Origin: Halocafeteria seosinensis
Taxonomy: Eukaryota > Sar > Bigyra > Bicosoecida
Direction: 5' to 3'
Assembly: GCA_001687465.1 (NCBI GenBank)
Contig: LVLI01000614.1
Coordinates: 1 to 39,434, forward strand
DNA length: 39,434 nt
Shown here: positions 3,801-27,900 of the stretch, piece by piece
Layout of the letters: the number at the start of each line of letters is the position of its first letter
Position numbering within the stretch: the first letter of the stretch is position 1
The notes under the pieces: model-generated
Told to the model about the DNA's origin: nothing
Databases searched by the model: none
Seen by the model: only the letters and a program-made list of their open reading frames with translations
Position numbers and translations under genes: made by a program

Positions 3801-3855
3801 GATGAAACGGGCTCTGTCTTTGCCTGCCAACATTGAGGATAAAAAGACCAAGTAG
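802..3855 (+). CDS. ATG11: ATG11/FIP200-like autophagy scaffold (993 aa)
   Basis: Two exons, 802-905 and 978-3855, separated by a 72-nt GTAAGT..CAG intron. The start is ATG at 802 with A at -3; reading only the long exon would lose the N-terminus. Residues about 11-75 (TITLTVVNVIAGEKF, then QLLLYDDGKVPLQ across the splice) look like the ubiquitin-like domain of FIP200/ATG11. A long helical middle of the ATG17/ATG11 type follows. A short coiled coil sits near residues 680-715 (KYIERLEEANASLKSELE). The C-terminal claw domain is at about 828-925 (FHVGDRMLFVQL, YYLSSAVV, LVCGTVYHI). A basic Ser-rich tail ends the protein. Members scaffold the ATG1/ULK kinase complex at the phagophore site, and the claw binds selective-autophagy receptors. 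The stop lies three bases from that of the convergent Sfi1-like gene. ATG11 versus FIP200 cannot be separated here, since both share this layout. Confidence 0.85.
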
Positions 3856-3858
3856 AGG

Positions 3859-6800
3859 TTATAATGATCCACTGGAGTCTGATCCATTTAGGATACGTTT
3901 GACAACTTCTTGCAGCTTGCGAGGGCGGAATTCTGCAGAACCTCGGTCATGATCGCTGTAATTTTGAAGGACGTTCCCCTTAATTTCGCTAACATCTCTC
4001 TTTGTCCACTGTAGTTCACTGTTGCGCACTTTACGGAGAAGTGCTAGCTCCCTGTCTAGGACCTCATTAGTATCATAAGATGAAAATGGACGTCTCTTCG
4101 AGTTTTCTTTGGGCCTACCCCCGGTACTACGCATAGCTATTTTTAGTCTAGCCTGCAATGTTCTCGCGAACACTCTCCTCCACCGGTTTACAATATGGGA
4201 TTTCTGAATACGTTGAACAGCCACTACTCGGCTCCTATCATCTTGCCCTTCTTTGCGAACGTACGTGCTCCAACCCTCGAACGCCGCCCGTAGCTGTCGT
4301 TTTCTGACTATCGCCGTCAGCTGGGTTTCAGCGTGCTGTATCCGTTTCGCTCGCAGGTGTTTCTCTTTCCACGTTCGAAAGAACTTTTTCTGAATACGTC
4401 TTCGATCAGCTGACACTGTAAGCCACAGCTGGAACCATCCTAGAAGCGCTCGCACTTTAGTATTTCTTTCCCAGTATACACGGGCCCTTTTTTTGCACCG
4501 ATTTATGTACGCATACTTAGTTGCAAATTGATGCCATTGCGCCCAAGCTTGCAATTTTCTCTGTAATTCCAACGTCCTCGTTGCATTACAAACGATGGAT
4601 CGAGCACGTCGCTGGTTCGACGTTATGGTCCTGAGCATGGAGAATGATGGAAGCAATCGAGCTTTAACAGCAGTTTCACTCCCTTCCGCCAGCAAGGGTT
4701 CCGTGAGATGAGACAGAAATAATTGAGCGATTCTCAGTCTATCCGGCTCCTCAAAGTAATTGGAAGTTCGTTTGTGGATGTGCTGGCGAGAACACTGAAG
4801 TGCTTTTATTCGCTCCTGACGATTTCGGCGAACAAAATCGCATCTCCGGTGTAACCGCCGAAAGGCGAATGATCGGCGAAGCGAGTGGGCTCTTTCCTCT
4901 AATATTTGCATCCGCTGTTGCGAGTAGAGTGCAATCCTCCATAGCTTCAACAATTTGCGTTTCGCGCGGTAGGAAAAGACTGATTCAGCCTTCTCGAGAA
5001 GTTGTCTCTCAGATCTCAGAAGAAGAGCTTGAGAATTCCATTGATGCATAAGCTTGCGCAGTCTATGTACTCGAGTACTAGTCTGCAGATAAAGACATTT
5101 CGTAGCGAGGTCTTTAGACTTTTCGGTAAACTGTCTCCATTTGGAAAATGCATGTCTCAACAATCGCTCAGTCCTCACAACTTGGGAGTATCGATACAGC
5201 TTTTGCTCGTAAGTAAACATTCTAAAGCATTGGAAAACCTGCTTCTTCCTTCGAATTTCCTGTTTTGACCACACCAAACCTATCATTCGCGTCCTGACAA
5301 GCTGAAGTTCGTCAAACCTTTGTCGCCAAATACCGAACGCAGAACTAACAGTCTTTCTATCACGATCCCGCGAAATCAATAACTTCCGGTCTGACAGCCA
5401 TTTCATTTGCCTCGTATGATCTCCCCATGAGCGAACAATTCTGCCACATAGTTGCATGGACAACTTGCTCTGAAACGACCGTGCGATCTTCCGGGAACGA
5501 TAGCCCCTGTACAGTTGCCCAAAGAGGGTGTCGCGGCGACGAGTTAAGATCCTATCACGCAGCAATTGCGTTTTGCCACGAATTATTCTCATCCTTCTAC
5601 GGTACTCCGTCCATTTCTTCAAGCTGTGTGATAATCGGATGCTCTCCGACTTGCATCTGAATGCATGGAATCTTTTTTTCATCTCTTTCTTGCTAGCAGA
5701 GTAACTGACGAGTCGAGAAAATACTTGTTTCTTGACGCGATGTAGATATAAACCGACCGCGGACTCAGTAAGCCTCTTCCACTGAGAACGGGTTCTAGCC
5801 ATAGTCTTCCACTGTATCAATGAGCGGCGAGCTCTTCTCTGCAGGTTCCTCGTATTGCATGTAATTTGTTGTTTTCTCAACCACCTTAAACGATGCAGGA
5901 ACTCCTGCCACTGTCGCACTCCGTGACGCAGTCGTCTGACAGTATACAAGCTATCAGCCGCATAAAACATTCGCCTTTTTGTGTGAGCCTTCGCGGCATT
6001 CGTCAGTAACATCCTTATACCAGCGTTGTACCGATGACGGCGAATGAGGGATCGTATCCTGTTGGTCTTGTGTTCCAGCATCTTGGAATCATAGTTTGCA
6101 TCCATCCAACCAGTAAACGCCCTTCGCAGCAAATTCCTGCGAAACACTGAGTCAGCTATTTGCTCCTTTCGCACCCTTATCCGATCTTCTATGACGAACT
6201 CCTTCCAGCGGTACCAGTAAGTTCTACAGGATCGCCCGTTCAGTATACGGGAAACTTTATTGAGGGCAAACTTACGAACAAATATCTGTCTGGTGAAAGA
6301 TTTCCATTCTTGGTAAGCGTTGAACAATACCTTTTGATCAGCATATTCTCTAAAGCGGTTGCACTGATACTCAAGCAACTGATGTCTTAACGTCGCGCCT
6401 CTCCAGTAGTGCCAATAACGCTCCAACTGATGCCGATGTCTGTAGGCCACTATCTCCCGCTGTAAACCCGACAACCGGCCTTTATGGGCAGAGTACGCCC
6501 AGAACCCATTGAACATTTTTTTGAGTAATACAAATTTTCGCACACCTTGCAACTTTTGGACAGCCTGCTTTCGCAATCTTCCAATGTGAGCCTGCTCATG
6601 CATACGTCTAAAATGATTATGTAGTAGCATCATTCTCCGGAATCGTCCAGCGCGCACGAGGAGATTGACCAATTCGTGCTTTTCTGCAATCTTCTGCTTC
6701 CATGTCTGGAAAGCCTTGGATACACGCTGCGTAGCACGGAAAACCCTGGCCTGCCACTTCCGTTTACGGTATTCGTAAGAGGTGAAATTATACATCTTCC

Positions 6801-9651
6801 ATTTGGATATCGCCTTTTTCAGTTTCAGCTTCTTCACCTGAGCTTCAGCTTCCACGAAGTATTCGCGAAAACTACATTGCAGAGAGGCGACTTGCCGCCA
6901 AGCACCAAGGCAAATAACAGAGGTGAACTTGTCCCGTACGCGCTGTAACGTGAGTACCGCGGCCCGCTTTTTCAGCTTCTTTGAGGTTGCGAAGGTACTC
7001 CAAGTGAACAGACACGCACGAAGTACATAATCGGACCATTCTTTTTCCTTCCTTTTCTTTTCTACTCTTTCTTGCCGAGCTATTTCCGTAGAGTACTTCC
7101 AGTTCTTAACAGACTTGGACAACACGCTCTTCAAGTGGAAAATGGCAGCTATCTCAGCCCTTGCGCGGAAGACATGTATGCGATGTAGGCGGAGTCGCCA
7201 GTCTCCTATATATTTCTTTAGCAATTTGGTACAGTGCCTGTGTTCTGTGATTGCCGACGCCTCTAGGATTCGTCGTTCTTTTAGCGCATGTTCCTGAATT
7301 CGTACGAAGGCTTGACCTTTCATTCTCCTAGCTACAAGGACGACAAAGCAGTCGATGACGTGTCCATAGCGTCGGGATTCATGTAGCATCGACTGTAGCC
7401 TCGCGAATGTACGTCTTAGAACACGCCATCGCCAAATGCGATCTACCGTCGCAGATATGGATCGACGCTTAGCAACTGTCACGCTGTACCGATACCAAGT
7501 GCAGAGTGCATTGCGACTCACAAAGCGAAAAATCAGCATTCTAAAACGCTGCTTTTGATACGCAACCCAGCTCCATTCTCGTAAAGCTCGTCGCGATTTC
7601 TTCTCAGCAAGCATATTGTAGAGTTGCGAAGCTTGGCGCTCATGCTCCCCGACTATGCCCTGCCAGTTGTGGAACGTGGACCGCACAACCATAGACCTAT
7701 CAACCGAGCGAATTACACGCACAAGGGTTTCCCTGGCAGCATGCTTCCGAAGATGCGTATTGTACCATGAGTCAAGAATGATTCGTTTCCGGCGATTCTC
7801 AATATACCCCTTTACGGCACGTAATTGTTGTTTCTGAGCAGCACGCATTGAAGCATTTTCTGTCCATCTATGAAAGAGAACATCCTCTGCAATCATAACC
7901 AAGTGTCGCCTGGCTCGGCGAAGAATTTGTTTTGAGCGATAAAGAGACCAAAAATCGGTGAAAATACGCCGCTTAAAGGTAAGCTCTGTCTTCTGCTTTA
8001 TAGTACCGGCACTTCTCTGAAGACGCCGTCGCTCCCGGCAAAACCGTTTCCATGCCAGAAGACACTGTCCCAAGAGATTCACAGAAAACGATTCTTGCAT
8101 CTGAGAAACCGCGTTAAGAACACTTGTACACCTCCTCCAGACTCGAAAAAGAGCCCGTGACCTCTGCCAGTTAAGCCGCTCCCGAAGATCGGACCCCATA
8201 TTTTCGACATAGTACCTCCTCCTCCATAACGACCAAGCCCAACTAAGGAGCCGTCCAGCTTTGTTATTGCTGACATTCCAAGCCGCATTTCTTTCTTGAG
8301 AACGCTTTTGAGCAAGCAACGACCACTGATAGACAAAGTTACGTAAGAACTCCGTTTCCCGAGGTGGGCCGCTCTTCGTCCCTAGAGATTCCACCGTCGA
8401 CTGCCCAGGAGAGGGGGTGCTTGAGGTGCCATATTCTGGGCCCTGTGGTTGTGTAGTCGGCTGAGGATTGAAGGTAAACGAGACTGTACGCGTATGTGGA
8501 GGCTGGTTCTGGATCGTGCTTGGGTCATGAAAGGGGAGTTCATCTGGGGTATCAGCAGATATGGGATTTCTTGACTCAGCAGGTGAATTTCTCGGTGATA
8601 TAGCCACTTGAAGACCACGGCACGTCCTCAAAACACTCCTATTGGGTCCGATGTTCGTTCCTCCATCTGTGTCATAGTCGCTTTGTTGCCTTACAGCAGA
8701 GTAGTCATTGTATGCATACCGCGTACTACTTGAGACAGAGGAACGCTGATCAGCTTGTGGAGCTACGTTCTGATGCCGGCCATCTGTGCTCGAGAGTGCA
8801 GGTTGCTGTTGATACCGCTGCATAGTATCTGTGGTGGCGTAAGCCCACAGCGGAGGCTGCTGTTCGTTAGTCCCAGCTATTTCTTCGCTTGGTCCAAGCC
8901 TTCGAGCAAGCTCGTAGACCGGTACCTGTATTGGGTGGGGAAGTTGTTGGTACCAGACGTTTCCGGATGCCCACATAGGGGGCTGATGCGATAGCCTATC
9001 CGCAGAGTAATTCCCTTGTCTTTCACCATTAGCGAATGCATTTGTTGCTACACTATTATTCCTATCTTCTTGCTGCACTGGCACCATCGGCGCCGCTAGA
9101 TAATCTAGTGCAGTTTCTTCTTCCATGCCATAGCTATCGGTACCAGTTAAAGCGGGTTCATGGGAACGACTACCTTTCCGCGGCTCGAAACATTCCGCAA
9201 TCGTTTCTTCGTGACGATTCTCAGCTCCCATCCGCCGATAGTGCTCTTCCATAATTTCTCGAGTACCATCGCTCATACTACCTTCCTCATCGGAACCTTC
9301 CAGGGAGACGGTGGAAGTCGAGCTTGCATGGGTTCCTTCAGGAAAGTTGCCGTTCCACCCAGAATCATTCCCATACAGCGTTCCACCTCCATAAGCCGAA
9401 AATACTGTTTCAGAAGCAGTGGATAACGGCTGCTGGTCTCCTAATGAAGCTTGTAATGGTCCCAAAGCCTGATTGATCTGTTGCCGGAACTCCTGCTGTT
9501 TAGACTGCTTAAATGTCTCCACCTCCGAGACTAGATCCCCAAACAAGCTTCGTTTGCCTTTTTCATGTCGTTTAGAGCGAGATTCATCAGGTTTCCTGCT
9601 GGAATAGGTCCTGTATCCTCTGGTAGAGCGCTCCATATCCCCGTAGCCCAT
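3859..9651 (-). CDS. SFI1: Sfi1-like giant centrin-binding repeat protein (1930 aa)
   Basis: A single uninterrupted exon. The first 430 or so residues are low-complexity and rich in Ser, Gln and Pro. From there to about 1820 the protein is an almost continuous basic helix. It contains roughly forty repeats spaced about 30-35 residues, with a Trp or Phe core such as FTGWMDANYDS, LLGWFQLWL, HQWNSQALL and FRTWKEKH. This is the signature of Sfi1, whose long helix binds one centrin per repeat in spindle-pole-body half-bridges and centriole or basal-body fibres. The length exceeds yeast Sfi1 (about 950 aa) and human SFI1 (about 1240 aa), so the filament could be unusually long. The start ATG at 9651 opens the frame directly after an intergenic region shared head to head with SAM50. 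The 3' end abuts the ATG11-like gene. Another Sfi1-repeat protein such as a centriolar POC5-type factor is possible, but the repeat count favours Sfi1. Confidence 0.85.
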   Translation of the reverse strand: MGYGDMERSTRGYRTYSSRKPDESRSKRHEKGKRSLFGDLVSEVETFKQSKQQEFRQQINQALGPLQASLGDQQPLSTASETVFSAYGGGTLYGNDSGWNGNFPEGTHASSTSTVSLEGSDEEGSMSDGTREIMEEHYRRMGAENRHEETIAECFEPRKGSRSHEPALTGTDSYGMEEETALDYLAAPMVPVQQEDRNNSVATNAFANGERQGNYSADRLSHQPPMWASGNVWYQQLPHPIQVPVYELARRLGPSEEIAGTNEQQPPLWAYATTDTMQRYQQQPALSSTDGRHQNVAPQADQRSSVSSSTRYAYNDYSAVRQQSDYDTDGGTNIGPNRSVLRTCRGLQVAISPRNSPAESRNPISADTPDELPFHDPSTIQNQPPHTRTVSFTFNPQPTTQPQGPEYGTSSTPSPGQSTVESLGTKSGPPRETEFLRNFVYQWSLLAQKRSQERNAAWNVSNNKAGRLLSWAWSLWRRRYYVENMGSDLRERLNWQRSRALFRVWRRCTSVLNAVSQMQESFSVNLLGQCLLAWKRFCRERRRLQRSAGTIKQKTELTFKRRIFTDFWSLYRSKQILRRARRHLVMIAEDVLFHRWTENASMRAAQKQQLRAVKGYIENRRKRIILDSWYNTHLRKHAARETLVRVIRSVDRSMVVRSTFHNWQGIVGEHERQASQLYNMLAEKKSRRALREWSWVAYQKQRFRMLIFRFVSRNALCTWYRYSVTVAKRRSISATVDRIWRWRVLRRTFARLQSMLHESRRYGHVIDCFVVLVARRMKGQAFVRIQEHALKERRILEASAITEHRHCTKLLKKYIGDWRLRLHRIHVFRARAEIAAIFHLKSVLSKSVKNWKYSTEIARQERVEKKRKEKEWSDYVLRACLFTWSTFATSKKLKKRAAVLTLQRVRDKFTSVICLGAWRQVASLQCSFREYFVEAEAQVKKLKLKKAISKWKMYNFTSYEYRKRKWQARVFRATQRVSKAFQTWKQKIAEKHELVNLLVRAGRFRRMMLLHNHFRRMHEQAHIGRLRKQAVQKLQGVRKFVLLKKMFNGFWAYSAHKGRLSGLQREIVAYRHRHQLERYWHYWRGATLRHQLLEYQCNRFREYADQKVLFNAYQEWKSFTRQIFVRKFALNKVSRILNGRSCRTYWYRWKEFVIEDRIRVRKEQIADSVFRRNLLRRAFTGWMDANYDSKMLEHKTNRIRSLIRRHRYNAGIRMLLTNAAKAHTKRRMFYAADSLYTVRRLRHGVRQWQEFLHRLRWLRKQQITCNTRNLQRRARRSLIQWKTMARTRSQWKRLTESAVGLYLHRVKKQVFSRLVSYSASKKEMKKRFHAFRCKSESIRLSHSLKKWTEYRRRMRIIRGKTQLLRDRILTRRRDTLFGQLYRGYRSRKIARSFQSKLSMQLCGRIVRSWGDHTRQMKWLSDRKLLISRDRDRKTVSSAFGIWRQRFDELQLVRTRMIGLVWSKQEIRRKKQVFQCFRMFTYEQKLYRYSQVVRTERLLRHAFSKWRQFTEKSKDLATKCLYLQTSTRVHRLRKLMHQWNSQALLLRSERQLLEKAESVFSYRAKRKLLKLWRIALYSQQRMQILEERAHSLRRSFAFRRLHRRCDFVRRNRQERIKALQCSRQHIHKRTSNYFEEPDRLRIAQLFLSHLTEPLLAEGSETAVKARLLPSFSMLRTITSNQRRARSIVCNATRTLELQRKLQAWAQWHQFATKYAYINRCKKRARVYWERNTKVRALLGWFQLWLTVSADRRRIQKKFFRTWKEKHLRAKRIQHAETQLTAIVRKRQLRAAFEGWSTYVRKEGQDDRSRVVAVQRIQKSHIVNRWRRVFARTLQARLKIAMRSTGGRPKENSKRRPFSSYDTNEVLDRELALLRKVRNSELQWTKRDVSEIKGNVLQNYSDHDRGSAEFRPRKLQEVVKRILNGSDSSGSL

Positions 9652-10045: not shown

Positions 10046-12342
10046 ATGTCCCAATCCGGCTCCGGTGGCCCTGATTCGGGACATAGAGGCCATAAACGAG
10101 ATACAGATGAGATACCCGAAGGGATGGGTCCCAAGGGGACCTCCTACAGTATCATCCCTGAGCGCATACGCGGGCGATTGGCTGATGCGTGGGCACAAAG
10201 AGCGAGAAACATGCCCCAGGAGCAGCAGCCTCAGCAGCTTCGAATCAACAAAATCTACGCTTATGACGAAAATGGGTACGTTTTGACGGATTTTTTTTTT
10301 CATGCTCAGCACATCGAGCATGACCTGCCGATTCGGACTGTGCATTTTCCTTGAGCTCGGTTGTGTGTATGGATGCAGGAGCCCGAAAATCCGGACACGG
10401 CCGGAAGTACTTCGAGCCTTATTGCATGATATAAATGGATATACTCGCGGTATCGATAGGACTACAGCGACCTCTTCCATGCTCCAGGAAGTTATGAACA
10501 GGCTCTCAGAGACAGGCGCATTCACGGATGTGAATCTCCGACTCACATCCCCCCAAGGGTCGTCGAGAGACCGTCGGCAATCGCATCAATACGGGGAGAG
10601 GATCCCTCAAGCAGATTTATGTCTAGGACTCACGGAGAGATCATATTCTCTCCAAACAGGAGTATCAGGAACTCCACAAGGGAGTCTAGAAGCTGTAAGT
10701 CGTTCTAGCCATCATGAAGAGCACATGGACGTGGTTTCAACATGTTTGAATTGTTTGTTTGGGTGCGCAGTACACCGAAGGGTCATTGGTCAATATGTTG
10801 GGCAGTTTAGAGACTATAACCTGCAAGGTGATGGCTGCGAAGAATGCTGCTATTAGGGCAGAATGGGGACTAAGTGAATCGGGGTCCACCAAGTCGAAGG
10901 ACAAAGAGGATTCTTTCAGTAGCATAGCTTCACCGTCGGTGGAGTTAGGATTTTCTAAACCTACGTTCCAAGGTACCCGCTGGGGCATTAAGGCCAATGC
11001 CCGAATGGATGAAGACGACTTTACACACCGAAGCCGTTTTGTTAATAAAGTACGTCATGCTGTGACTTCTACGTTCGTTTTAGCCCGTCTAATACTCATT
11101 CTCTGACGTTCTTGTCACAGGTCACTGAAGCTGACGCTTCATTCGTCTCTCCTAACAAGCGACATAGCATTGGGATGTTCTCTTCGTGGAGAAATCCGGT
11201 TTATCATAGAGCTCCAAAACGCCATTTCAAAGCGGATGCGCCTCCAGAGTAAGCTGCTTTCATTCGCAGTGTGCGCCTTCTTTCATTTTTCATCACTTTC
11301 TTGCAGAGTGGCAAAATCTTGCTCAGCAAGTTCTGCATCCGGATTCCGGTATATGTATGAGAATAATCAACGTCAAGGTGACAGTGCACCCGTTTCAGGA
11401 TCATATTCGCGACTCTTGGCTGAGTTTGCCCATCCTGGTGTAGCTGGTGACTGCCGATTCGTGCGTTTTGAGAATACGTACGAACGGATCGTCTCGTGGG
11501 GTCGTCGCATGCCTGATACCGGGTACGAGAAGCCCTTGTCGAAAAGCCGTTACAATTCCCCTGCAGATAAATCTGCTCCGGGCACGAATCTATCTCCGCA
11601 ACCACATCCAAGCGAATCTAACATACTGTCAGGATGGCTCAGCGAGCCTCAGAAGGAAACTTCAGAAAGAAGGAGAAAGGGCAAAGAAAAGTTTACACTA
11701 TCCCATCAAATATCTGGATGGCTATCACCCGGTATTGTAAGTCTGCGCTGTGTTCTCGCATCGATACGAGTTGAAAGTCACTCTTGGAATGCATTGACTA
11801 CTCTGCAGACTGCACGAGCAGAGTGGAAGGGCGGTTTACTGCTTTCTCCCAAACTCTTAGATTACCTACGAGGTGATCCATCGGCAGCGAACTCCAAAAG
11901 CTCGTTCATCTGTGATAGATACTTTTTAGGCGCTCCTGCTTTCCGAGGGTTTACTTTAGCCGGAATCGGTCCCTCGTCGACAATGGGTTCTGGGCAAAGA
12001 GTTGCTCTAGGCGGGGATTTGATGGGTTTATTTACAGCCAGACTACAACTACCGCCTCCTATACCTTCCATTACACTTGCTAATGCTGGCATGAGACTTC
12101 AGCTGTTTGCCAGTTGTGGTACTCTATTGAGCGATGATCAACTAGTGGCGGCTTGCAGGACTACCTCATTAACTCGCGAGTCTTTGACATCGCTGGCAAA
12201 GACGCATGGACGCGCTTCGGCAGGAATAGGAATATGGCTTCCCATAGGGCAAGCCGCCGGATTGGAAGCCACATGGACATTGTGGCAGCACTCTCACCCT
12301 TCAGACAGCCGCGCCTCCTTCTCCTTGGGTGTCTCCCAGTAG
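10046..12342 (+). CDS. SAM50: SAM50/TOB55 outer-membrane beta-barrel assembly protein (638 aa)
   Basis: Six exons: 10046-10275, 10379-10694, 10771-11049, 11121-11248, 11307-11736, 11809-12342. Introns are 103, 76, 71, 58 and 72 nt and all phases agree. Residues about 67-170 form the POTRA domain (RINKIYAYDENG, then RPEVLRALLHDING, SRLSETGAF-like spacing, FTDVNLRL). The rest is the Omp85 barrel. LVNMLGSLETI aligns with the early barrel strands of animal SAMM50, and DRYFLGAPAFRGF near residue 497 is the conserved loop-6 region (usual core RGF). Members insert beta-barrel proteins into the mitochondrial outer membrane. The usual length is about 470 residues. The excess lies in a polar N-terminal extension and in Ser-, Lys- and Pro-rich inserts between barrel strands, one near residues 320-460. 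The chloroplast OEP80/TOC75 relatives are an alternative, but the single POTRA and the LLG motif favour SAM50. Confidence 0.85.
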
Positions 12343-13181: not shown

Positions 13182-16100
13182 TCAATCAATAACGTCCTCG
13201 TGTTTGTTTGTTTTGGTCTGCTCTTGTCTTGCCTTCTCCAGCTCTTTGTCTTCCACTTCTGAAAACGTATCGCATAAGACACCGATAAATAGATTCGTGA
13301 ATAGCAGACCATTCACAATGACAAAGAGCACGAAGTAGGTGATCGGCACCAAGGAGTTTCGTGCATCCATAGCCGCGTACGACACAACGTGCCACTGCTC
13401 CCCTTCCATTATTAGGAATAAAGTTGTTAAAGCAGTGGAAAAGCTATCAAACGTGGCAGGTCCCAAATCGTAGGCGTCGTCACTTAGTCGCCGGAATTGT
13501 CCACCATACAACCAAACTCCGAAGACGGCAAAAACGTACATAGTAAGAAGGATAAGAGCGCAAATCGGAGCAAATGTAGAAGCTCTCTTGAGCAAACCGA
13601 AAACAAGTCTCCTAGTCGAGTGAACCACAGACAGCAACCGTAGCACTGGGAACGTTACTGCTAGTCTCATACCCACATTGACGGCAAACGTGTACCTATC
13701 TTCATCTTGGCGGATGTTGTCAGTGTGTTGGGCAACTCCAATGAAGCTTGTACCGATGATCATCATCAACGAAACCATGATAACAGCAAAATCGAACCTA
13801 TTTGCCGATATCTGATAGTTGTTTCTTGCATCTATGTCAGCTTCTTCGTCCTCTTCCGCATCATCTAGATCCATAAGCGAGGAAGCTCGACCAGGGGGAC
13901 GAGAAACCCGCCTACTGGACTTAGCTCCCCCATTTAGAGCCAAGGAGGACACGCTTTGCCTCTGTAACCACCCTTCGCCTAATTTTAAACGTTTTTTCAT
14001 CTTTCCGAACCAGAAGCGTTTCCATCCACCAAGCATGTGGAAGAACACCTCCGCTACCTGGAGAAACAAAAACCCACCTAGAATAGGGTCGGCATAGGAC
14101 GTCAAGCGAGTTCCCAGCAACATAATAGTCCAAGTGTGAAGCAGTACCGTCTGCAAAATATACAAGGTTGGAACAGAGACCATGACCGAAAACAACAAAG
14201 CAACTTACTATAAGTAATGCTATATCATATCGGACTAGCATCTTATTATCAAAGAATCGCCTAAGCCACACTCGACAAGCAGCAAGACCAGGTAAACTTC
14301 CGCATCGACTGTTTTTCTTGACTTTTGCTGTTAGAAATTCCCCGCGATACTTCCCGCTTTCAAAGTTGAAACCTCTGTAACGGTGCCGACGAAGAGAGCG
14401 ATTATAGAAGCTACTTTTAGAAAGAGTGAATGACTTTGGCAACTTACAGCTTTACCATCAGATATTCACACACATAAACAAACTCTGTGGATGTCAGTTT
14501 GTCGTTTAGTCCGACGTAGTGACTCTTCTTTATTCCGCAAGAGTGAAAGAATGGTTCGTATTCAGTCCGCTCAATTATTCCGTTCGCATTAAGATCTAGT
14601 AGAGAGAAAGCTACCAAAGGCGCAAATCTTCTCCTCGCAGTGAGACTCCGAGACCGGACATTGTAACACTCAGTATAACGTGATTGGAAGCTAACTAGCA
14701 GCAGCGATCCCAAAATGAACATTCCTGCGAGAGAAATAATAATGAAATACGGTCGGTAAATTGTACCAACGAAACCTCCGTCGTCTGTTGGATCCTCATT
14801 GGGGTATGTGATATCGTCATAGTTCTCCCCAGTAGCAGCCAGAATGAATATTGTGTACCAGCTAGATTGAAAGTTCGAAAAACCTCTGCCCAGCCCAGGT
14901 AAAGCAAAATCATCTAGTTCGTGTAAACGCAACCCTGGGTTCGCTCCTTCAACGGCAGTGTTTTTTACTTGCTGATCTAGTTGTCTGATGTTCTCTGTTT
15001 CATCTAGTCCTGGAGGAGTATCATCGCCGGTGAAAGGAATTGTATCACTGACTTCCGGACCTTCTCCGCGTGTAGGGGCACTTCCTAGGTCCGTATAGTC
15101 ACTGAATAGGGCAATCGAAACAGCAGCTACTATTATCGTAAATGTAATGAACAAGGTAAACGTTCGTCTAGCGAGAAGAATAGTACTTCCTAGAGCTTGA
15201 AGAGATCGCCTCACAGGAGACACTCGCATCACCACCAAAAAGGGTCGAATAAGAGCTGTCAGGGGCAGCAACGTGGCAGAGCGTCCTGTTCTGTAGTCGA
15301 CTCCAAGCCTTACAAGAAAGTCAATAGATAGTATCAACAGCATCAGTGATCGCACGACTACTAGAATCCTGTACGATGGAGCTTTTGTATTCGAAGTTCT
15401 CGGTGGTTTGGCCACGCTATGCTCTCCACGCTTGGGAGCGGCAGCCGAATAGCGGTCACGTTGGCGCATGGCGGCTGTTACGTCGTATAACGAATAATAG
15501 TTCTTCCGTATGCCTTTGAGATATAGTCCCAAAGCATTGTCAGTCACAAGTACGAACAGGATAAATAACTCTACAAGTAAAACCTGCGCCCGTAGCTTCC
15601 GCACTGCCTCGACGGGCTCATCAGCAGACAGTGGTTGTGCCCCGAACGCCGACTTGCTTTCAACAGACCAGCCAGTCCTGCCATCTACACTTGTATCCAC
15701 AGGAAGCTGCTCTTTGCCTTCAAATGCAGCACCGACGTCCACTTCCATATCTTTGCTCGAGCTCTTAGGGGAATCCGCAGGCCACAAAGGGGTTACACCG
15801 TCATCCGACATTGTGCCAACTATAACGGCTCTCTCGAGAGTACCGGTACCGACAACTGTATCGCTCGCCTCGAAAAAGGCTAAACACAAGTAAGCTGCCA
15901 AAGCTAAATATATTAACCCTTTGTACCACCTCGTGGAAATAATACTATGAGCACGCTCAGCGGTCCACCTTCCGAGTTTTTCTAGGTAGACCGCCTCCAA
16001 GGCATGCCTGTCCGATGCATACATATGAATGTATTCCCGAGCCCTACGGAATATCGACAGCTCCCAGTAATATACCTCTTCACTAACAAGCTTAGGTGAA

Positions 16101-19100
16101 CCACCGCCGGCCATAACAGATAACCGAGACTTCCTCTTATTTCCGGTTTGTAGCGGATTCGCTGTTGCATCCACAGTATCCTCTTCTTCGTTAGCTCGTT
16201 TCGAAGCTTGTGGTGTGTCGGACCGCATTCCCCTAGTCTGCGTTCCCGCAAGCACATTAGAAACGTGGTTAGAGTATGACGATTTCCCTCCAAGCAGGTT
16301 TAGACGCCTCCATGTTCGTTCAAGACAGCCCTCGGAGGCTTCCTGTTCCCTATCTTTCAAAGCCTCCTGGATACGAAACAATTGCCAGCAACTCCAACGT
16401 GATCCATAAGCGTAAACATTGGACACAGAACCGTGAATAGCGTGCATGGCAGACTCAATTGCTGGATCTGCTGGTACCATCATTTCATCGGCATCGAGTG
16501 TGACAAGCTCGGATTGGGCGGTACTATCCTTTCCCAGACCTTCTGAGACTGATAAACGAGACTTGGAGGCTATTCTATGCAGGTCATGGTAAGAGGAATC
16601 CCTCGATGCTGTAGATGCCATACTTGCAAGGCGTGCAAAAGTTCGAATTTTGGTTATTCTTCGCTGGTGGTCACTCTGGTTGGCTTCACTCTTGCTTTCA
16701 TTGCCAACCGGCTCAGGTTTCTTGGGAGGTTGAGAGCTCACGCGAATAAAATAAGATCTCAAATCAGTCGTCAATGCTCCAGCCAACAAGGTACAGCAAA
16801 GTAAAGGACCGATAGTTATCAAAAATAGTGCCCACTGCCAACTGTCAGATTCTCGCTTAATGGTGCGCAAGTGAATCAAACCACTAGCGATTACGTCTAA
16901 GTCACTTCCTGTTCGCAATGTCGCAGCCAGAGTGCTGCCTAAAAACTTGTCGAGATTGTCGTCGACGTTGACACTTTGAATGTTCGGGTCACCGACGCAT
17001 GCCCGAATGAGTCCACCTGCTGAGCTGGCACCCCCAACCACATGAGTGTTTGCTACGTACTCGGCAAGCTCCCCAACGCCAATGTAATTCACAGCGTTCG
17101 CCACCGTTGTTTGGATTCTCCCCAATTTTGTGGCAGTTTGGAGAAGAGAGCTGGCATCCTTCCGGTACTGGAAAAGGTCAACGCTTCCAGAAATGGCGAG
17201 CGCGGAAGTACTGATGTAGACATCTTCGCTTTCGGCTGCAAACGCACGCTCAAGACCTACGTTCTCTACGTCTACTTGTAGAGATCCACCATGAGATGCT
17301 CCCAAGAGTAAAGCAGCGGGGCGCAACACAAAGTCGAAATCTTCTTCAGAGTCGTGTGAAACTGCAGCTCCCGTGAAAAATGGGGATGCACTTGTTTTCC
17401 GACTGGGGAATGAAGGGCAGTTACCCGAACAAAGAATATTCTGTAGCCGTACAGCTGCATTCTTTATCACTTCCACCGTTTGATCGCTTTGCGCATCGGC
17501 GACCTCGTCAAACGTTACTGTTAAAGCGCGATCAAAAGATGTTGAAAAGACTAGTAACCTTGCAGCACTAATCTGCAACGAATCAAGGGTATGCATAAGA
17601 CGCAGCGGGCCCTCCGAAACCACCAGTCGATGCGGCTGGTGAAACTGGTCGATATCAAACTCAAACGGTGAGGTGTTGTCAAAAGGACTAAGCGTGCTAA
17701 ACTGCAGTGGCACAGATGCAAGCCTCTCGTTTAGGGTCGACATTGTCATCTCCGCATGAGCCCTCGTAAGCACCAAGTACCCATCTTCACTGAAATGATA
17801 CGTCGCGAGAGTAGCGTTCAGGGGTTGTTTTCCAATTAACCTTGAGTCCTCCAGAGGTTGGAATAGATTACTCCCTATATACCGAGAGAGCGATTCGCTG
17901 ATTTCCACACTATTCTGAGGAATCGGACTTGCGACGAAATAGGATAATGAAAGAGTCCGAGCTCCACTCACAAAACTCCTAGCTTCCGGTGCCACAACCG
18001 AGACGGTATTTGCAGTAAAAAAGCTGCGCGATAATCCCGATCGAGAGGGTGCCCAGAGGGTGTAGGTAGGTGTCCACGTTGCAGAAAACATCGAGTCGAC
18101 AACTTGCGAGGGGAGACTACGTTGGCTACTGATGGAGGAGTCACACAGCTCCGCGGTTTTCTTCCCCGACGTGAAGTTGTTCTTTACAAAGTCGAGCATG
18201 TCAAACCAAGGAAGTTCGGTGATGCTCAGGTCGGAAATGGTCTGCGCTACGGGTTGGAGCCTTGTTAAGACGTTTGAACGCCACCTAGTCAAGAATACTT
18301 TCTGCAATTGAAACACAGGGTCTCGCTGAGTGTTTCTATCTTCTAAAGCCGAAATAGATCGGAGAATCTCTAGTGAGATAACGTCCATCGCTAGACTCAT
18401 CGCCGAACCGTGTGAATGGTAGAGTACGTGTCCATTCACTGCTGCAGGGACTCCCTTACCATCGATGTAGTTGATCCGCATGTTTGATACAGAGGGATAA
18501 ATAACATATTCTGTCACTTTTTCATCTTCCAACTCGTCCTTATCAAGTAGTGATACAGATCCTAATATCGGATCATTCCATGCTGCCGCGAAGGCACTCT
18601 GAAAGTTTGTCCCTGCCTGTTTTGCAGACAAATCTGCCACGAGAGCTTCTACTGAGAGTGCTATAGGTTGCGCGGCAGAATACCCTTCAGCGGCCCAAAT
18701 AGTCGAACCCATGCTGTCACTCCCATGGCCTACCTGCTCCAGAGAATATATGCAGTCAATGTATGCCAGAATAGCTGAGGCTTTCGAAATATGGTAGTCA
18801 ATCCAATTGGGAGGAATGTCAACCAACGTAGTATTGAAGAAGAGTTCCCGTCTTCCAATGGCAGCTACAATGGACGACATATAGGCCGATCTACTGTTTT
18901 GAACATCCTCGATGAATGTGTCCAGAACGGTGTCATTTTCAGCGAAAATAGAAGAAGAGCCGACGAAGTGAACAACCCGCATATCCGCCGCCCCGTTTGT
19001 TGCCAGTTGTCTCAGCGAGGCTTCGTGTTGGGTTGCTCTAGCGCCCATGGTAGCGGCAATTTCAGCCACGCGGACAGAAATGTCATCCGTCGCTGAGCCC

Positions 19101-21424
19101 CAAGTAGACGAAGCGGCGAATGTCAAGAACATTGTCAACGCAAATGTACCCAGCATGATGCCTATGGTATGCGGGCGTAGTCCTCCCAATACTGCGTCAT
19201 CACCAGTTTGACCATCACCTATATTACCCGATTCCACCTTCTTCGCAGACGTAGTGGAGTGGGAGGCTTCAAAGAATCCTTGCATCCAACGAATCACTTT
19301 GTAGTCTGAGGAATGGTCCCGAGGGTATGTCATCACCCTGATATGCAAGATCGCCACAGCACTCAAAGCCATGGCCGAAAGCGTTAGCACTATGCCAAGG
19401 GCCATTTGCGGGCGCAAGTAACGAACTATCCGTGACCGTGGAGTGGACACAAATACACCCCATGAAGGAAGGAAGAATTCCTTTGCTTCGAGTGCAGAAT
19501 CGCTCGGTGTATTAGGAAGTGCAGCTTCACCAAGTCGAAAGAGCTGAGAAACTTCAGGATCCACAGTCGGGGCAGATATCGGCCACCCCTTTTGAGATCC
19601 AGTATGAAATGCTAAGACAACATCTCCAGGTCCACTGTCGCCGGACCATGGTGATCTGTAGAATGAAGCTGTTGTAGCCCCACTTGGATCTTCGTCCGTA
19701 TCTATGGGCCACCAACTAAGTGAACCAGGGAATACCGGACCGTAGAAGAGAGATTCGACGAATCTGCCTTTCAAATTTTCATGAAGCTCTCCCAGCTTGG
19801 CTTGCGACAACTCCGAAAACTGAGTGAGCTTTTGAGATGAACAAATTTGTAGAGGGCTGTACCCCGGAGGCAGTGGTTCTCCAGGAATAGGCGGAAAAAC
19901 GGACTCGTGTTTCCAACTAGAGCTCTCAACCATGTCTTCCTTCGATTTATCCGAGCCTACTACCGCAGAACCACTCAGTTCAACTATACCAAAGCAGCCT
20001 CCGTCAGCGAGAGAGTAGCCTGACCCCGTAACTGGACTGTCTTTTTCGTCTGCAGCCCCGGAAACTGCCAAAGCTGCCATTACCTTCTCTGAAAAGATAG
20101 CTGTGTCTACCCCAATGCTAACGACGACAAGCGTGTCTTCAGTTTCTAGTCTCCGCAGGACTGGAAGTGTAAACACGGCCACTTGCGACAAGCCAGTCAA
20201 ATGCTCGATGTGTGGAAGCTGTCGGAGCTGCGACGTTGTCAGCACGTGCCAGCGTGGTGACAAGAGTCGTTTCCGAGGTAAGCGCTTCCCGTCCATGAAA
20301 ATTGTGCCGTCGTTGATAAAAGATGTTGAAGACCAAATGTCGTTTCCACATTGCTTTTTGAAGGGATAACATCTGTGGGAGTCAGACTCGCACTCCAACT
20401 GGCCTAGTCTTCCTGCTCGGATCGTTTCTCGTTTTACGCTTTCGTGTGTGAACCCGAGATTCTCAGTTTCGGGTATATCCACCGTTCCCCAATGGTAGTA
20501 GCTTTCACACATAACGCCGTCGTGCGAATTCGTGCAGCATTCTCTCCAGTCTACTTCGGTGCAATTCTGGGCACATCCCGGGAGGCTTTCATAAACTGTA
20601 ATTTGGTTCTTTGTTTCCATCCTCGAAGATGCCCCTAACACTCTTCTGGCGCTAAAATCCCACACGTCCATCCAAATCAATTTTTCATCCTCCGCCACCT
20701 GTTTACCCAGGTAGCTTTTGAAATGCGTCCACTGCCGCTCCACAACGTCACGGAATCCCTTATCGGTAAAATTTTGCAAAGTCATTAGTTGTCCCGTAGA
20801 ATTCATTAGACGGTTGTAGAGCCTGCCAACCATTTGACTTTTAACGGCGTATTCAGTCGCTGTATTTCTAACCTCATTTGTCGCTAACATAGCCGTGCTA
20901 TTCATCATGTTCCCTACAGTCGTATCCACACTGAGCACGCTTCCTGTGTAGCCAATGGCAAACACAAACACAGCCCCACAAAAGATCACTAGAGGTATGA
21001 GAGAGCTCCGATATACTGATGGCGCCCATTTCGGGATATTCTCTCGGTTGCATTTCGATCTGCATAGTGCTAAGCCTGATAGCTTTCCAGCCTTTCGTGC
21101 AACCACTTCCGGTTGCGCTTCATGCATTGAATTCGGTTGCTTTGTTGTTGTAGCAATCTCTTCATTTTTTGTGGATACTCCACCCTTTTCTTTCTTATGA
21201 CTGGATGAGACTGTCTTCCCAGAGAGCTTTGGGTTGTCTCGCTTCTTGCCAGATGAGCTCTCGGTAGGTTCTTCACGTTGCCCTCGAGCATTCATTACCG
21301 TGGTTTCACTTTGGCTCTTTCTCACTGCTGTATCAATAGGGTTAGTTGTCTTTTGGACCTTCTCTCTGTCACTGTTAGGTTTCTTCGAATCGGAAGAGCC
21401 TTTCTCCTTTGTGGTGCTCATCAC
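13182..21424 (-). CDS. Giant two-pore-type cation channel fused to two N-terminal ectodomains (2703 aa)
   Basis: Three exons: 21424-14448, 14374-14209, 14150-13182, with introns of 73 and 58 nt. The cytosolic head (1-140) is charged. TM1 is near 140-163 (LIPLVIFCGAVFVFAIGY), then a Cys- and N-glycosite-rich ectodomain to about 668. TM2 follows at 670-697. TM3 at 750-773 begins a second ectodomain to about 1527, closed by TM4 at 1528-1552. The channel has two six-helix repeats. Repeat I spans about 1830-2252, with S4 LIRPFLVVMRVSPVRR and pore ILAATGENYDD. Repeat II spans about 2366-2668, with S4 LRLLSVVHSTRRL and pore LIMEGEQWHVV. Between the repeats lies a perfect EF-hand loop, DLNANGIIERTE at 2275-2286, as in plant-type TPC1. 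Each ectodomain starts with a long helix after its TM, as Cache-type sensors do; that assignment is inference. Plant or animal TPCs are about 730-820 aa, so about 1800 residues are extra. The uninterrupted frame shows this is not an annotation join. Confidence 0.85.
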
Positions 21425-21984: not shown

Positions 21985-24900
21985 ATGTTTGGCTCATCGA
22001 ACTACGATGGGGCGTTTCCGCGAGGGGGCGCGCCTGTCGTGGCATCGGCCGTGCCGCGCCCGAAAGCTGCCTCCGCCACCAGTGGTCGAGGGCTCTTTGC
22101 TACCCAGACTCCCATGCATAACAACCGGAAAGCGTCGAAATCAGACAAGCTTGGCCGTTCTGGCTCGAAGAAAAAGAGGTCCCGAGACGATGCGGATGCC
22201 GATGGTGATCAGGATGGCGGATTGGACAGCAAATGGGTCGTGGCGAACCCTGCTCAACTCACCAAAACCCTCACATTCAAGGTATGTTCCATTTTCCAGT
22301 CATTCTTGCATGGTGCTGGTTCATGTACGAACGGTGGTTGAAATTCGTCCTCCGCAGGACCTTCGAACGGGAATGTGCCTTCTGGCGACTGTGAGCAAAG
22401 TCCAAAGCACTGTACTTCATCTTAGCTTGCCCTTCGCCCTGACGGCGAAGTGCTCCTTGGCAGAGGCCATAGATACAGAGAAATACGATTTCCAGTCAAG
22501 TAAATTGCCTTTCCAGGAAGGCGATATTCTCCCCTGCGCCATTGTATCGTTGGAAAAAAGGGAAGAGAGAAGCGTCATATGGGTGTCGTTACGGCCGAGA
22601 CTGGTCAATGCAGGACTCTCGATTGATCAAATAATGGACGGGGAAATTCTGTATGGATGGGTCTCGTCAGCTGAAGACCATGGATATACTATTGAGACGG
22701 GAATCGAGGGTGTCCGGACGTTTCTTCCATATAAGGATAACGACGGCTCGAATGGGCAGGGCACACCTCTTACTATCGGTGGTCCAATTTGGTGCACTGT
22801 CAAGAATGTGAAGCTTGAGAAGAGTGGAGAGCGCACTGTGGATCGAGGACTTCTTACTCTGGAATCTTACAGTCAGGATTTTGAAGGAGGCTCGGGAGTG
22901 GATAAGCTGAGCAAGAAGAAGGCGGACGCAGTCAACACCAAACTGAAGGGCAACTCCATCGCTGCAAGGTTATCAGGTGGACTCGGTTATAAATTGTCAG
23001 GTCTGAAACCTGGTTATCTTGTTAAAGGAGAAGTATATAAAATCGCTAAGACAGGACTGGTGGTGTCGTTTCTTGGTTTTTATCAGGGGTTTATTGGAAT
23101 GCAACATCTTCCCTTTCCTGCTGACGCTATGTGGAAGAAACAGTATACCAAGGGACAGAAAATTTATGCTAGAATAGTGTCAGTGGACACAGTGGAAAAG
23201 CACATAATTCTTAGCTCTGTTCCAAATGTTGTGCGGATGCACAAACCCAATTTCTCGTATGAAATTGGAGACATTATTGACGACGGTAGAGTCCTCAGAG
23301 TCGATCCAAAACTCGGAGTACTGGTATCCGCTGAGAAGAAAGTTTCCCAAGAATCTGGCGAAGCGTACAAAGTACCATGGAACAAGGTTGCCTTTATTCA
23401 TGTTTCTAGGCTCTCAGATAAGCGCGTAGATAATATCGAGCGACTGTACCAGCCCGGTTCAGATATAAAGTGTCGTGTGACGGCGTACTCGTGGATGGAT
23501 GGTATCGTGCTGGCATCGTCCCAGAAAAGCGTGCTAAACTCCCCTATCTTTTCCTACGACGATATACAGCCAGGGATGTTATTGAAGGGCATCCCAACGA
23601 ATGAACTTGAATCCGGGATTGTCTTCACTGTGGGGTCCAAGATCAAAGGGTTTGTCCCCAATATGCATGTTCTCGACAATGTGACGGATGAAAAAAGCCA
23701 CGCGTTGAAAAAATATAAGGAAAAGGTGATTGATCGGGAAGAATACGTTTCAGCTCGGGTTCTTTCAGTTGACAAAACAAAACGCCGTCTTATCCTCACT
23801 ATGAAACCGTCTATGGTCGAAACCTCTTCTCCTATAATAACATCATATTCGCAGGCCTCAGATATACTGACAGTATCGAGCAACAAAACCACTGATGATG
23901 ACAATGACAATGGCGCCATTGTATATGGAGTTGTCGATAAAGTTACGGACGCCGGAATTGTGGTCGCCTTCTTTGGCAACGTTAAAGGGTTGGTGCATAA
24001 GTCCGAGTTAGAAGCTGCCGGTATGGAAGACTTTAAACATGATTTTCGCCGAGGAGAAGTGCTTCGAGTCTCTATCTTGTCCGTGGACCCAGTCCGAGAG
24101 CGCATTAAACTCTCTACCTTGTTAACGAACAATGAACGAGTACACGCAGTAAACGGCAACGCTACCCCCTGTAACGAGGCGCGAGGTGGAATCCAGTCCG
24201 TGCAAGCTGTCGGTGCGGTGGATGGTAATAGACGCTTTCATATTTCTTCCGAGGCTAGCAACCGTATCCGGAAGTCGTCCAAAGCTCATCAAACTAATCC
24301 TCTGATCTCAGAACCTTATTTGCTTGTCTTAAGCAACTCTGAGAGAATATCTGTAGTTCCCATGCAGCACCTTTCAGATCATCCCTATGTTTGCCAAAAA
24401 ATATTTGAAAAATACGTCAGTGATTTAGAAGCAGGAAGGGATGTCGTAATTAGCAGTTGTTTGGCAATTGAACAAAAGAAGTTGTCTGGCACTGTCTTCC
24501 GAGCCCATCAGAAATGGCTGGGACAGGAAGCACGGGATATCCAGATTCTAACAGTAAAGCCTAGCCTTCTTTGGAGCTTCGGAAGGGAAAAACAGCTGAT
24601 TAAGTGTCCACGGCATTTCATGGAACTCAGTCAAGGTGATCTAGTTGTAGGCTATGTCGTCTCAGTTACTGCGTTTGGGGTCTTCGTTCGGTCCATGAAT
24701 GGATGCACGGGCATGGTTCCCCGCAGCTCGCTAATGAGGCAGTCGGAGTCTACGTTGGACTATACAATAGGTCAAAGCATCGTTGCTGTAGTGCAGTCAG
24801 TGGATCAGACTAAAGGTAGCTACGTGCTGACATTGCGCAGCGAACGAGTCTGCCAGAGAATGCGTACTTTGCGCGAGAATCTCTTAAATATGGAAGAGGA

Positions 24901-27900
24901 AAATGACACTGTTTATAACGGTGTCAGTTTCCCGTCCTTGTTTCTTTTGTCAGCCTTGCAAGGAGAAGACGAATTTAGGTGTAAGAAATCCGGCACGGAC
25001 GAGGATGAGCGATCTCAAGATGATGAAGATGACCAAGATGAGGCAGCCGGTGTTTCTGATGTCTTAACACACTCCCATCTTCCTCCGGGTACCGTTGTAC
25101 CAGCCACAGTGGAAGTGTTGCGCGAGTACGGTGCTGTCTGTAGTGTAACAGTTGAGAATAGCACTGTTCCAGCATTTTTGCATAAATCATTTTGTAAAGA
25201 CGATAAGACTATGAGTGTGGGAGCGTCGTTCAAAGCGGAGGTGTTGGATGTTGATGTGGAGAAGGGGATCATCGATATTGCTCCAAATATGTCACCCTCT
25301 AGGGCGCAAGACGTTAAAATAGGTGAGCAGGTAGACTGTACAATTCAACTTGTCCGAAAGAGAGATAAAACTCTACAATACGCTATTACGCGGCTATCTG
25401 GAAAGCACAGTGGATTAGCGATTTTGGCCCTATCTGACTATTATGTCACATCAGATCAGGCGGGGGAAGTATTGCATAGTCCTTTAGAGCAGGGGACTAC
25501 TCTTAAAGCTGTGGTCACCCATGTCCCTGATGGACAACAGCAATGTTTGAATTTTATGCTGTTGAGCCCGTTTCTTGCCGGAACGAAAGAAACCTCTGCC
25601 AGCAACGGTGCTCTCACGTCTGCCTCTAACTTGCGGCCGGGGATGAAAGCCATGGGGGTCGTATTACATGGACTGAAAAGGAAGCATGGAGGCGTAATAT
25701 CTATGCAAGTAAAATTAATGGGTGTGCGAGGACGCTACAAATGCACAGTGCCACTTTCAGAGGTTGTCGATTGCAACTTATCCAAGTTCTATGATTCACC
25801 TGAGTCGGTTCCAGACGAATCTTTGAAGAACGCCCTGAGTATCAAACAAGGTGCAGAGATAGCTGTCAAAATAGTCTCGGTAAAACTGCCTCCATCGAGT
25901 TCGGAGGTGAAGGAAGTATCAATTTATGCGACGACAAAAGAAGCGGATCTTGCGATACAGGAAGAACAGTTGCAACATTTCCGACCTTCTTGGCGTCCTC
26001 TGTATGCGGACGATGATGTGATTCCTGAGATTTATGAACCTGCGCCGATATCGTCTTCGAAGTGTTCCCTTTCTGATGGCACTCAGCTGGGAATCAAGCA
26101 TGATTCTGGAAAGGACGTTCCTGAATCCGCCGATAAGGATGGTATTCCTTGCAATAGTGGACTGAGAGCCGGCGTAGATTTACACTCTGGGAGCCTCGTG
26201 TCAGGCCTCGTTGAACGCGTTGACTCAGAGGGTCTTACAATTGGTTTGGGTAGTGGGATCCGAGGGAAGTGTCATGTGACAGAACTGGGATCATCAGCAG
26301 CAGACGTGGAAGGAACGTTAAAATCGATAAATGTTGGAGACCTCATATCGGTAGCGGTCATCCGACTGAATACTCGTTCCAAGCAACTAGAGGTGTCTTA
26401 TCGCCTTGCGACAACTCTCAGGACAAAGGCGGAAGAGTTTTCAATAGGATTGGCCGAAGTAAAGAACAAGAAGGCAAAAAAGAGTGTTTCAGGACCCAAA
26501 TCAGAAGTCTCACTCAATTTGCTTTGCGAGAAATTGGATGGGTATATTGCGGAGGTGAACGCGCTCTATCCTGGGAAACGAGTGGTCTGTAGGGTTGAAC
26601 GATTACATTCGGCAGTGGAAAATTTGAAGGAAAGCGTGCAAAAGCTGCATGGTAACAGTAAAGAACACACGTATCTCAATCAAGATACAAGACTTCGTGT
26701 TACATTTGGGTCAATGCTTGAAAAATTCGGGTACGTGAATGCAACACATAGTGCGGATCCTTCGGAATGGAAGAGCTTCCCGTTCGAAGAGCATGAAGAT
26801 GACGACATTGTTGACGCTGTCATTCTCAACTGCCCTGCGGAAGAGAACCCCACGGATACCCCATCGATTTCTTCGCTACGAAACCGCTTTGAGCTATCGT
26901 TCCGGGACAGTGCAAAGAAGAAGAGTAGTAAACTTCATAAGTCCAACAGTGCGAAAGAGGATGTGGCAAGCAAGTTTGTGAAATGGTTGACAAAAGAAGA
27001 AAACAACCTGTTCCATGGCATGCGCGAAGAGCAGAAAGGAAAAGGTTTCATTCTTAACACTTCGAAGAAAGGTTGCTTCGTTCAGCTGACACTATTCCAC
27101 GTTGCCCGCATCCTCGTATCTAACCTATCGAATACGTACGTCACTAACGTTGCCCAAGAGTTCCCTCCAGCGAAATTGGTAGTTGGCAACATAACCATGT
27201 TTGACGCGAAAACGAACCGCATCGAAATGTCGCTTAAGGACAAAGACGAAGATACGCCAACTGCTCCCAATTTAAATTGGATAGAACACGGCCAAGTTTT
27301 GGACGGTATCGTGGACTCTGTCACAGAGTTCGGTGCATTCGTAAAACTAATTGATCCGGTCTCTAAGAAGGTTTCGGACGTTAAAGGGCTATGTCATGTA
27401 TCGGAGCTATCTGATAAACCTTTAGAGAGAAGCCGCTTAGCAATCATGGAGCACATTAATCCGTCAGACACTGTCTGTGTATGTGTACTAAAAGTGGACC
27501 GACAGAAGGGCAAAGTTGCCCTCTCGATGAAGCCCTCAATGGTTCAGCAATCACTGCAGAATGCAACTACTTCTCAAAAGCATCGCACTAAAGAAAACGA
27601 AAACGAGAAGCGACTCCCTGACGCGAATGTCATAGACGATCTTAACGAGATCCAAGAAGACGATGGAGATGTCAACATGCTAAACCAAGACACTCAATCC
27701 TCGCGAAGCAATTTGTGGTCCGCGCCTGAATGGACGAAGGATTCGAGAAGCACTCTTGACATTGGCGATATCCAGTCGAAACTCACATTCTCAGGTACAA
27801 ACGATGTGCACGCTGAGGAAAAACGCCGAGCTGCTGGGGAGCAAAACCCCGCGAGCACTTCGGACTACGAGAAGCTTGTAGCTGCTCATCCACAAGACAG

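Follow-up and report, generated by a model that had tools for sequence, protein, structure and literature searches.

Channels of the voltage-gated superfamily usually learn of events outside the cell at second hand, through G proteins, auxiliary subunits or second messengers. Can such a channel carry a sensor of its own? The question is raised by a gene from Halocafeteria seosinensis, a bicosoecid of hypersaline water. The gene lies on the minus strand of a 39,434-nucleotide stretch of DNA (the window; contig LVLI01000614.1 of assembly GCA_001687465.1, our contig C391 of a host genome of 30.6 Mb in 605 contigs). The order of its encoded parts is a tail, a first ectodomain of 513 amino acids between two transmembrane (TM) segments, a second of 759 amino acids between two more, a linker, and a two-repeat channel with an EF-hand between the repeats. 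This layout suggests that an outside signal may be sensed directly by the channel.

The first-pass annotation, made from the letters of the window, saw here a two-pore channel (TPC) fused to a sensor module. Two parts of that view call for scrutiny. The first is the fusion itself: are the ectodomains and the pore one protein? The second is function: what do the outer parts resemble, and what kind of pore do they precede? We propose that the gene encodes one giant receptor-like, Ca2+-modulated cation channel that would be gated through its ectodomains, a reading to which we assign a probability of about one half. The fusion on which it depends is near certain.

Results

The fusion and its transcripts

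The continuous exon of 6977 nucleotides described at first pass is exact (21424-14448). The minus-strand frame is open from 21430 to 14444, and 2326 codons without a stop would arise by chance with a probability of about 10^-40, given the window's own stop frequency. The gene has two introns, both GT-AG (Table 1), and its product is 2702 amino acids long counted from the first ATG, at 21421; residue numbers here take the GTG at 21424 as residue 1.

Two further copies of the whole architecture exist in the host genome, in tandem and on the same strand of another contig (L009 and L010, here paralogs A and B). Exon 1 is a single exon in both. The window gene is 41-42% identical to these paralogs, which are 51% identical to each other. 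A protein search added four relatives. P0001 (50% identity) and P0004 (39%) come from ENA contigs and cover the tail through the EF-hand, stopping with exon 1; their repeat II thus lies outside the available sequence. P0002 and P0003 come from EukProt (transcripts GECG01012031.1 and GECG01012034.1). The family amounts to five proteins, 38-51% identical.

Transcripts of the paralogs bear on whether the halves are joined. P0002, an open reading frame (ORF) of 2647 amino acids from a transcript assembly, equals paralog A at each of residues 1-2264, runs on through exon 2, and is again identical over 321 residues from exon 3. The two ectodomains and the two repeats are therefore carried by one transcript, from which both introns are gone, and the early claim that the ectodomains run in frame into the channel holds for a single polypeptide. 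P0003 equals paralog B over 2231 identical residues that cross the junction between ectodomains and channel. Close to the EF-hand its reading frame shifts, probably because a T run has gained one T, by a sequencing slip or as a real variant; its first residues, at the 5' end, also differ from those of paralog B.

Could the long frame instead be a fusion at the level of annotation, with a four-TM protein and a downstream channel sharing a frame by chance? Full-length transcripts of the window gene itself were not found in the protein searches, as this explanation would have it. Against it, the fused frame is repeated in two paralogs and two relatives (in the latter as far as the EF-hand), and the junction is crossed unbroken both by the paralog A transcript ORF and by P0003. 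A transcript break between ectodomains and channel, which would have meant two proteins, is absent from paralog A, whose ORF is uninterrupted. Two separate genes are thus largely refuted and very improbable. Hidden in-frame introns in exon 1 are likewise ruled out, since the transcript ORFs equal the genomic exon over 2264 residues in paralog A and 2231 in paralog B.

Are the ectodomains kept as protein? Comparison of the window gene with paralog A gives the following differences at codon positions 1/2/3: 0.48/0.37/0.70 in ectodomain 1, 0.53/0.41/0.68 in ectodomain 2, 0.40/0.25/0.66 in repeat I and 0.67/0.64/0.65 in the N-terminal tail. Third positions are saturated in all parts (0.65-0.70), and the tail is without constraint. 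Because second positions in the ectodomains are held while third positions are saturated, the ectodomains are under selection as protein.

By identity the family falls into two subgroups: the window gene with P0001 (50%), and paralogs A and B with P0004 (45-51%). The tree of repeat I joins paralog A to P0004 at 97/99 and leaves the window gene and P0001 unplaced. The fusion is present in both subgroups, so it probably predates their split. When a profile of the five proteins served as query, three of the four known relatives came back and P0004 was lost. This search and the protein search each scored no more than about 8000 candidates, and more distant relatives may easily have escaped them. 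With the channel half alone as query (914/923 residues), a single weak, partial match was found (P0005, 30% identity over 14%). A decayed relic of the family's pore-I region lies at C156:20421-20995 (L033:2922-3496), where the pore stretch occurs about three times in tandem with a stop codon inside.

Layout of the outer parts

The claim of four extra TM segments and two ectodomains of about 500 and 750 residues is borne out. About 1834 residues, including the four TMs, precede S1, and the ectodomains together total about 1270 amino acids. The four hydrophobic peaks of the window protein that do not belong to the channel have equivalents in all four other homologs; P0003 has one additional weak peak within ectodomain 2. 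Net charge is negative in both ectodomains and positive in the linker, in all five proteins. TM1 is preceded by two to five Lys/Arg and followed by none, again in 5/5 proteins, which argues for a cytosolic tail. After TM4, Lys/Arg outnumber those before it in four of the five, P0001 being the exception, and we take the linker after TM4 as cytosolic. The composition of the ectodomains looks ordered, unlike that of the tail.

What the ectodomains resemble

Pfam was searched at E up to 10 with all five members and both ectodomain alignments. No dCache, CHASE, periplasmic-binding or other sensor family appeared, in lists that are thin above 0.1, where HMMER filters drop most matches. What did appear is unconvincing: six families for one ectodomain, each in a single member (E 0.03-0.5), and one family for the other, again in a single member (E 0.12). 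NCBIfam yielded no family for the ectodomains (three single-member matches, E 0.04-0.33), and profile searches of the PDB gave no ectodomain match beyond one unconvincing hit at E 0.06. At E up to 10 the host genome holds no ectodomain copy outside the three genes. A bacterial or viral source was also considered and rejected: pattern scans (for the prokaryotes, of ectodomain 2 only) produced 44 stretches from prokaryotic contigs and 51 from viral contigs, none of them a relative by tblastn. Nor are the two ectodomains related to each other or built of internal repeats as far as hhalign detects, with all 13 part-to-part comparisons at 0.3% probability or less. Among the proteins searched, the ectodomains have no recognisable relative and may represent a new extracellular fold.

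Another possibility is that they are divergent double-Cache (PAS-like) sensors. This is a claim about fold, compatible with the receptor-like reading. Cache domains begin with a helix after a TM and end in a strand that runs into the next TM. By eye, and with crude propensities, ectodomain 1 has a helix-like stretch after TM1 and a strand-like end, LPNWGVFVGTPR, leading into TM2. Among prokaryotic extracellular sensors, Cache domains make up the largest superfamily (PMC4822843). Set against this are the blank Pfam and PDB searches for sensor families and an hhalign probability of 0.1% for either ectodomain against a dCache-like receptor of the same genome, a weak test with a single sub-cut-off template and no positive control. 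A double-Cache fold is therefore possible but on the doubtful side.

That receptor (L027, contig C37) falls below the Pfam cut-off and carries C-terminal TPR repeats. A check of pSymA for dCache sequences gave no match. A CHASE search of the host genome gave one weak match, below the cut-off; two CHASE kinases have been reported for H. seosinensis (PMC5447177).

The channel

Both repeats match Pfam Ion_trans, repeat I at E 2e-9 (Table 1) and repeat II at E 3e-28. The first-pass annotation called the channel TPC1-like, with two repeats and an EF-hand. The repeats and the EF-hand stand; the TPC1-like pore does not, for the filters carry Glu in both repeats. In the fusion family they read ATGENYD in repeat I and MEGEQWH in repeat II. 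We aligned filter II with the GEDW of CaV channels, and both filters with the host's own TPCs and four-domain-type channels (a label taken from how many Ion_trans matches they have). The four-domain-type channels (C235, C129) have filters of the T-x-E-D/N/L-W type in most domains; the ordinary TPCs (C136, C268) have TTN/TAN in repeat I and VNN in repeat II, and the C136 TPC finds animal TPC1 as its best PDB match. The fusion family places Glu at the high-field-strength site of both repeats, as in CaV channels and the NaV channels of bacteria; in known TPCs the residue is Asn. Repeat-II filters of known TPCs include MGN, VNN and, in the diatom TPCL, VND (PMC11085791); the residues here, TGENY and GEQW, are not of that type. 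Because the Toxoplasma TgTPC deviates too, this filter signature is typical of TPCs rather than strictly defining.

Among solved structures repeat II best matches CaV alpha1 subunits (E 4e-34), with E about 1e-10 for entries named 'Two pore calcium channel protein 1' (Arabidopsis TPC1). In the tree, repeat I groups with TPC repeat I at 64/35 support. For repeat II, grouping with TPC repeat II has an approximately unbiased (AU) test p-value of 0.34, and none of five groupings is rejected. (The trees left out alignment rows C127, C230 and C256_31581, and one also C256_33408.) The trees thus give the channel no placement. We file it as a two-repeat channel of the voltage-gated superfamily, not as a TPC.

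What would such a pore conduct? In one published scheme, a neutral, non-glycine residue beside the Glu ring goes with Na+ permeability (PMC10120453). In the fusion family the residue after the filter Glu is Asn in repeat I and Gln in repeat II, both neutral. We therefore predict a Na+-permeable cation channel that is not strictly Ca2+-selective.

Voltage input, also part of the original proposal, is doubtful. The 18-residue S4 cores hold two basic residues (S4-I in 5/5 proteins, S4-II in the 2/2 counted), compared with 5, 7, 5 and 5 in four S4s of four-domain-type channels and 4, 4 and 4 in three TPC S4s of the same genome, in strings chosen by eye. Two more Arg lie directly behind each core, so voltage gating may be weak rather than absent; the weak cores leave room for a gate other than voltage.

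One canonical EF-hand loop just after S6-I matches the pattern (in its PROSITE form) in 5/5 proteins; the expectation, taken from 200 shuffled versions of the window protein, is 0.005 per protein. Plant-type TPC1 has two EF-hands between its repeats. A second loop was not found here, and Pfam at E up to 1 listed no EF-hand family.

Discussion

How might the parts work together? From the cytosolic tail, two membrane-anchored outer modules would follow in series, with the linker joining TM4 to the channel. By analogy with TPC structures, two chains would form one pore, with four filter Glu in a ring and four ectodomains around it. A stimulus outside the membrane, whether ligand, ion or salt, would move the ectodomain pair; the movement would travel by way of TM2/TM3 and TM4 into the linker and S1-S4, opening the pore to cations, Na+ and/or Ca2+. 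Ca2+ on the EF-hand would tune the gate. The site would presumably be the plasma membrane, and the role one in coping with brine.

Several points weigh against this scheme. No ligand-binding fold is recognised in the ectodomains by sequence. The flanks of TM3 are ambiguous, with no clear inside-positive bias. In ectodomain 1 the composition of residues 497-535 favours disorder; the rest of the ectodomains looks ordered, which answers in part the early worry that they might be unstructured. For the window gene itself, the protein searches yielded no transcript covering its full length. A conserved ectodomain could also serve assembly, traffic or adhesion. Finally, the linkers of two of the five proteins contain an acidic di-leucine-like motif, and a vacuolar site is therefore possible.

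Assembly and traffic are the substance of one alternative, in which the ectodomain module is an auxiliary subunit built in cis that folds, traffics or anchors the channel and senses nothing. The alpha2-delta subunit of animal CaV channels, by comparison, acts in trans. Ectodomains that are conserved yet match no ligand-binding family are what this alternative expects, and bulky outer subunits are known on NaV1, CaV1/CaV2 and NALCN (PMC10120453). The arrangement here, two TM-ectodomain-TM units on the N-terminal side and a 282-residue linker to S1, seems to resemble a signalling chain rather than a cap, and we regard an auxiliary role as rather less probable than gating.

The di-leucine-like motifs bear on a second alternative: a two-pore-type channel of the vacuole or endosome whose ectodomains are luminal and sense or bind luminal contents. 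TPCs often lie on organelle membranes, and the diatom TPCL is vacuolar, with the di-leucine motif EASPLL (PMC11085791), which ESAPLI in paralog A and ESEPLL in P0004 resemble. Since the motif is missing from the linker of the other three proteins, the window gene's included, we consider an organellar channel unlikely.

Relation to known channels

TPCs (plant TPC1 and animal TPC1-3) likewise have two Ion_trans repeats per chain and an EF-hand just after the first. They differ in the filters, here GEQ in repeat II with Glu in both repeats, and in the four TMs and about 1270 residues of ectodomain added here. Their short cytosolic N-terminus is absent from this family. The first-pass generalisation that known TPCs have short N-termini fails in any case for TgTPC, which has 1502 amino acids and an extended N-terminus (PMC8490419). 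TgTPC and the unicellular TPC-related channels (TPCR) are also alike in being divergent two-repeat channels with altered filters. TgTPC is distinguished by lacking an EF-hand, and extra TMs or ectodomains are not mentioned for it in the available part of that report (PMC8490419). Four-domain CaV channels share the Glu at the high-field-strength site and supply the best solved-structure matches of repeat II; they have four repeats where this family has two, and a further difference is the neutral Asn/Gln at the next filter site here.

Large outer domains are covalently joined to a channel or channel-like part in ionotropic glutamate receptors and polycystin-1 type proteins. Their pore is another one, as are their ectodomains, to judge from the lack of a Pfam match here. 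A stramenopile precedent for joining Ion_trans to signalling modules is provided by the voltage-sensor/cyclase fusions of oomycetes and ciliates (PMC12223298), in which the cyclase follows Ion_trans; here the ectodomain module precedes the channel. Titles and abstract openings among the literature matches listed, with most subscription journals outside coverage, describe no such fusion, and the combination of a two-repeat channel and a bipartite ectodomain module with four TMs appears to be new.

Why does this matter? Three paralogs in a single protist, and relatives elsewhere, combine sensor-like ectodomains and a pore in the same chain, so that one cDNA is enough to test direct control of the channel. 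A new extracellular fold may be present in the ectodomains, and, given its host, the gene is a candidate for the sensing of strong brine by a eukaryote. We tentatively go one step further, to a proposal that has clearly less than an even chance: the family may constitute a new receptor-channel class. Its EEEE ring is predicted to pass Na+; voltage sensing would be largely lost, a covalently joined pair of orphan ectodomains would open the pore instead, and Ca2+ would feed back through the EF-hand. In a halophilic predator such a channel would directly sense the composition of the brine, the osmotic state or chemicals from prey.

Table 1. Positions of the gene's features in the window, with the paralogs of the same genome
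Feature	Position	Strand	Remarks
Exon 1	14448..21424	-	6977 nt; N-terminal tail, ectodomain module, linker, channel repeat I, EF-hand
TM1	20951..21007	-	Residues 140-158; hydropathy peak in 5/5 proteins
Ectodomain 1	19406..20944	-	Residues 161-673, 513 aa; six invariant Cys
TM2	19346..19402	-	Residues 675-693; hydropathy
TM3	19112..19168	-	Residues 753-771; hydropathy
Ectodomain 2	16832..19108	-	Residues 773-1531, 759 aa
TM4	16772..16828	-	Residues 1533-1551; hydropathy
Linker	15923..16768	-	Residues 1553-1834, 282 aa; conserved stretch at its end, before S1
Channel repeat I	14675..15922	-	Residues 1835-2250; Pfam Ion_trans E 2e-9
Selectivity filter I	14813..14845	-	...AATGENYDD, Glu at 14827-14825; same in 5/5 proteins
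EF-hand loop	14558..14596	-	DLNANGIIERTEY; residues 2277-2289, just after S6-I
Intron 1	14375..14447	-	73 nt, GTAAGT...CAG; homologous intron spliced out in paralog A transcript
Exon 2	14209..14374	-	166 nt; EF-hand region to S1 of repeat II
Intron 2	14151..14208	-	58 nt, GTAAGT...CAG; homologous intron spliced out in paralog A transcript
Exon 3	13182..14150	-	Repeat II of the channel, then the C-terminus; last base of the stop codon at 13182
Selectivity filter II	13392..13409	-	MEGEQW, Glu at 13400-13398; same in 3/3 genomic copies
Tandem paralogs	C25:79783-87871 and 89262-97573		L009, L010; window copy dispersed on other contig

Neighbouring genes and other observations

Neighbouring genes in the window encode an ATG11/ATG17-like protein (928-3855, plus strand), an Omp85-type protein (11170-12342, plus), RRP5 (21989-28645, plus) and an ETF-ubiquinone oxidoreductase with a Rossmann-type FAD/NAD piece (28659-29921 and 30301-30825, minus). 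Between the first two lies an open frame of 1930 amino acids (3859-9651, minus) that matches none of the Pfam families at E of 0.001 or less.

Elsewhere in the genome, two ectoine synthase genes give six matches in separate pieces, as split exons would, at C33:55312-55779 and C93:18298-18788. Intron-bearing ectoine genes have been described in H. seosinensis, in line with this host, and other eukaryotes carry ectoine genes too (PMC5796728). One frame on contig C230 (L013:3448-7491, minus) combines RyR domains, ankyrin repeats and a polycystin-type channel, and a frame of 4276 amino acids on contig C161 (L014:2-4090) contains a RIH_assoc domain and belongs to an IP3R/RyR-like gene. P2X matches fall on C103, C183 and C264, in six pieces of which one is above the cut-off; 13 P2X genes have been reported for this species (PMC5447177).

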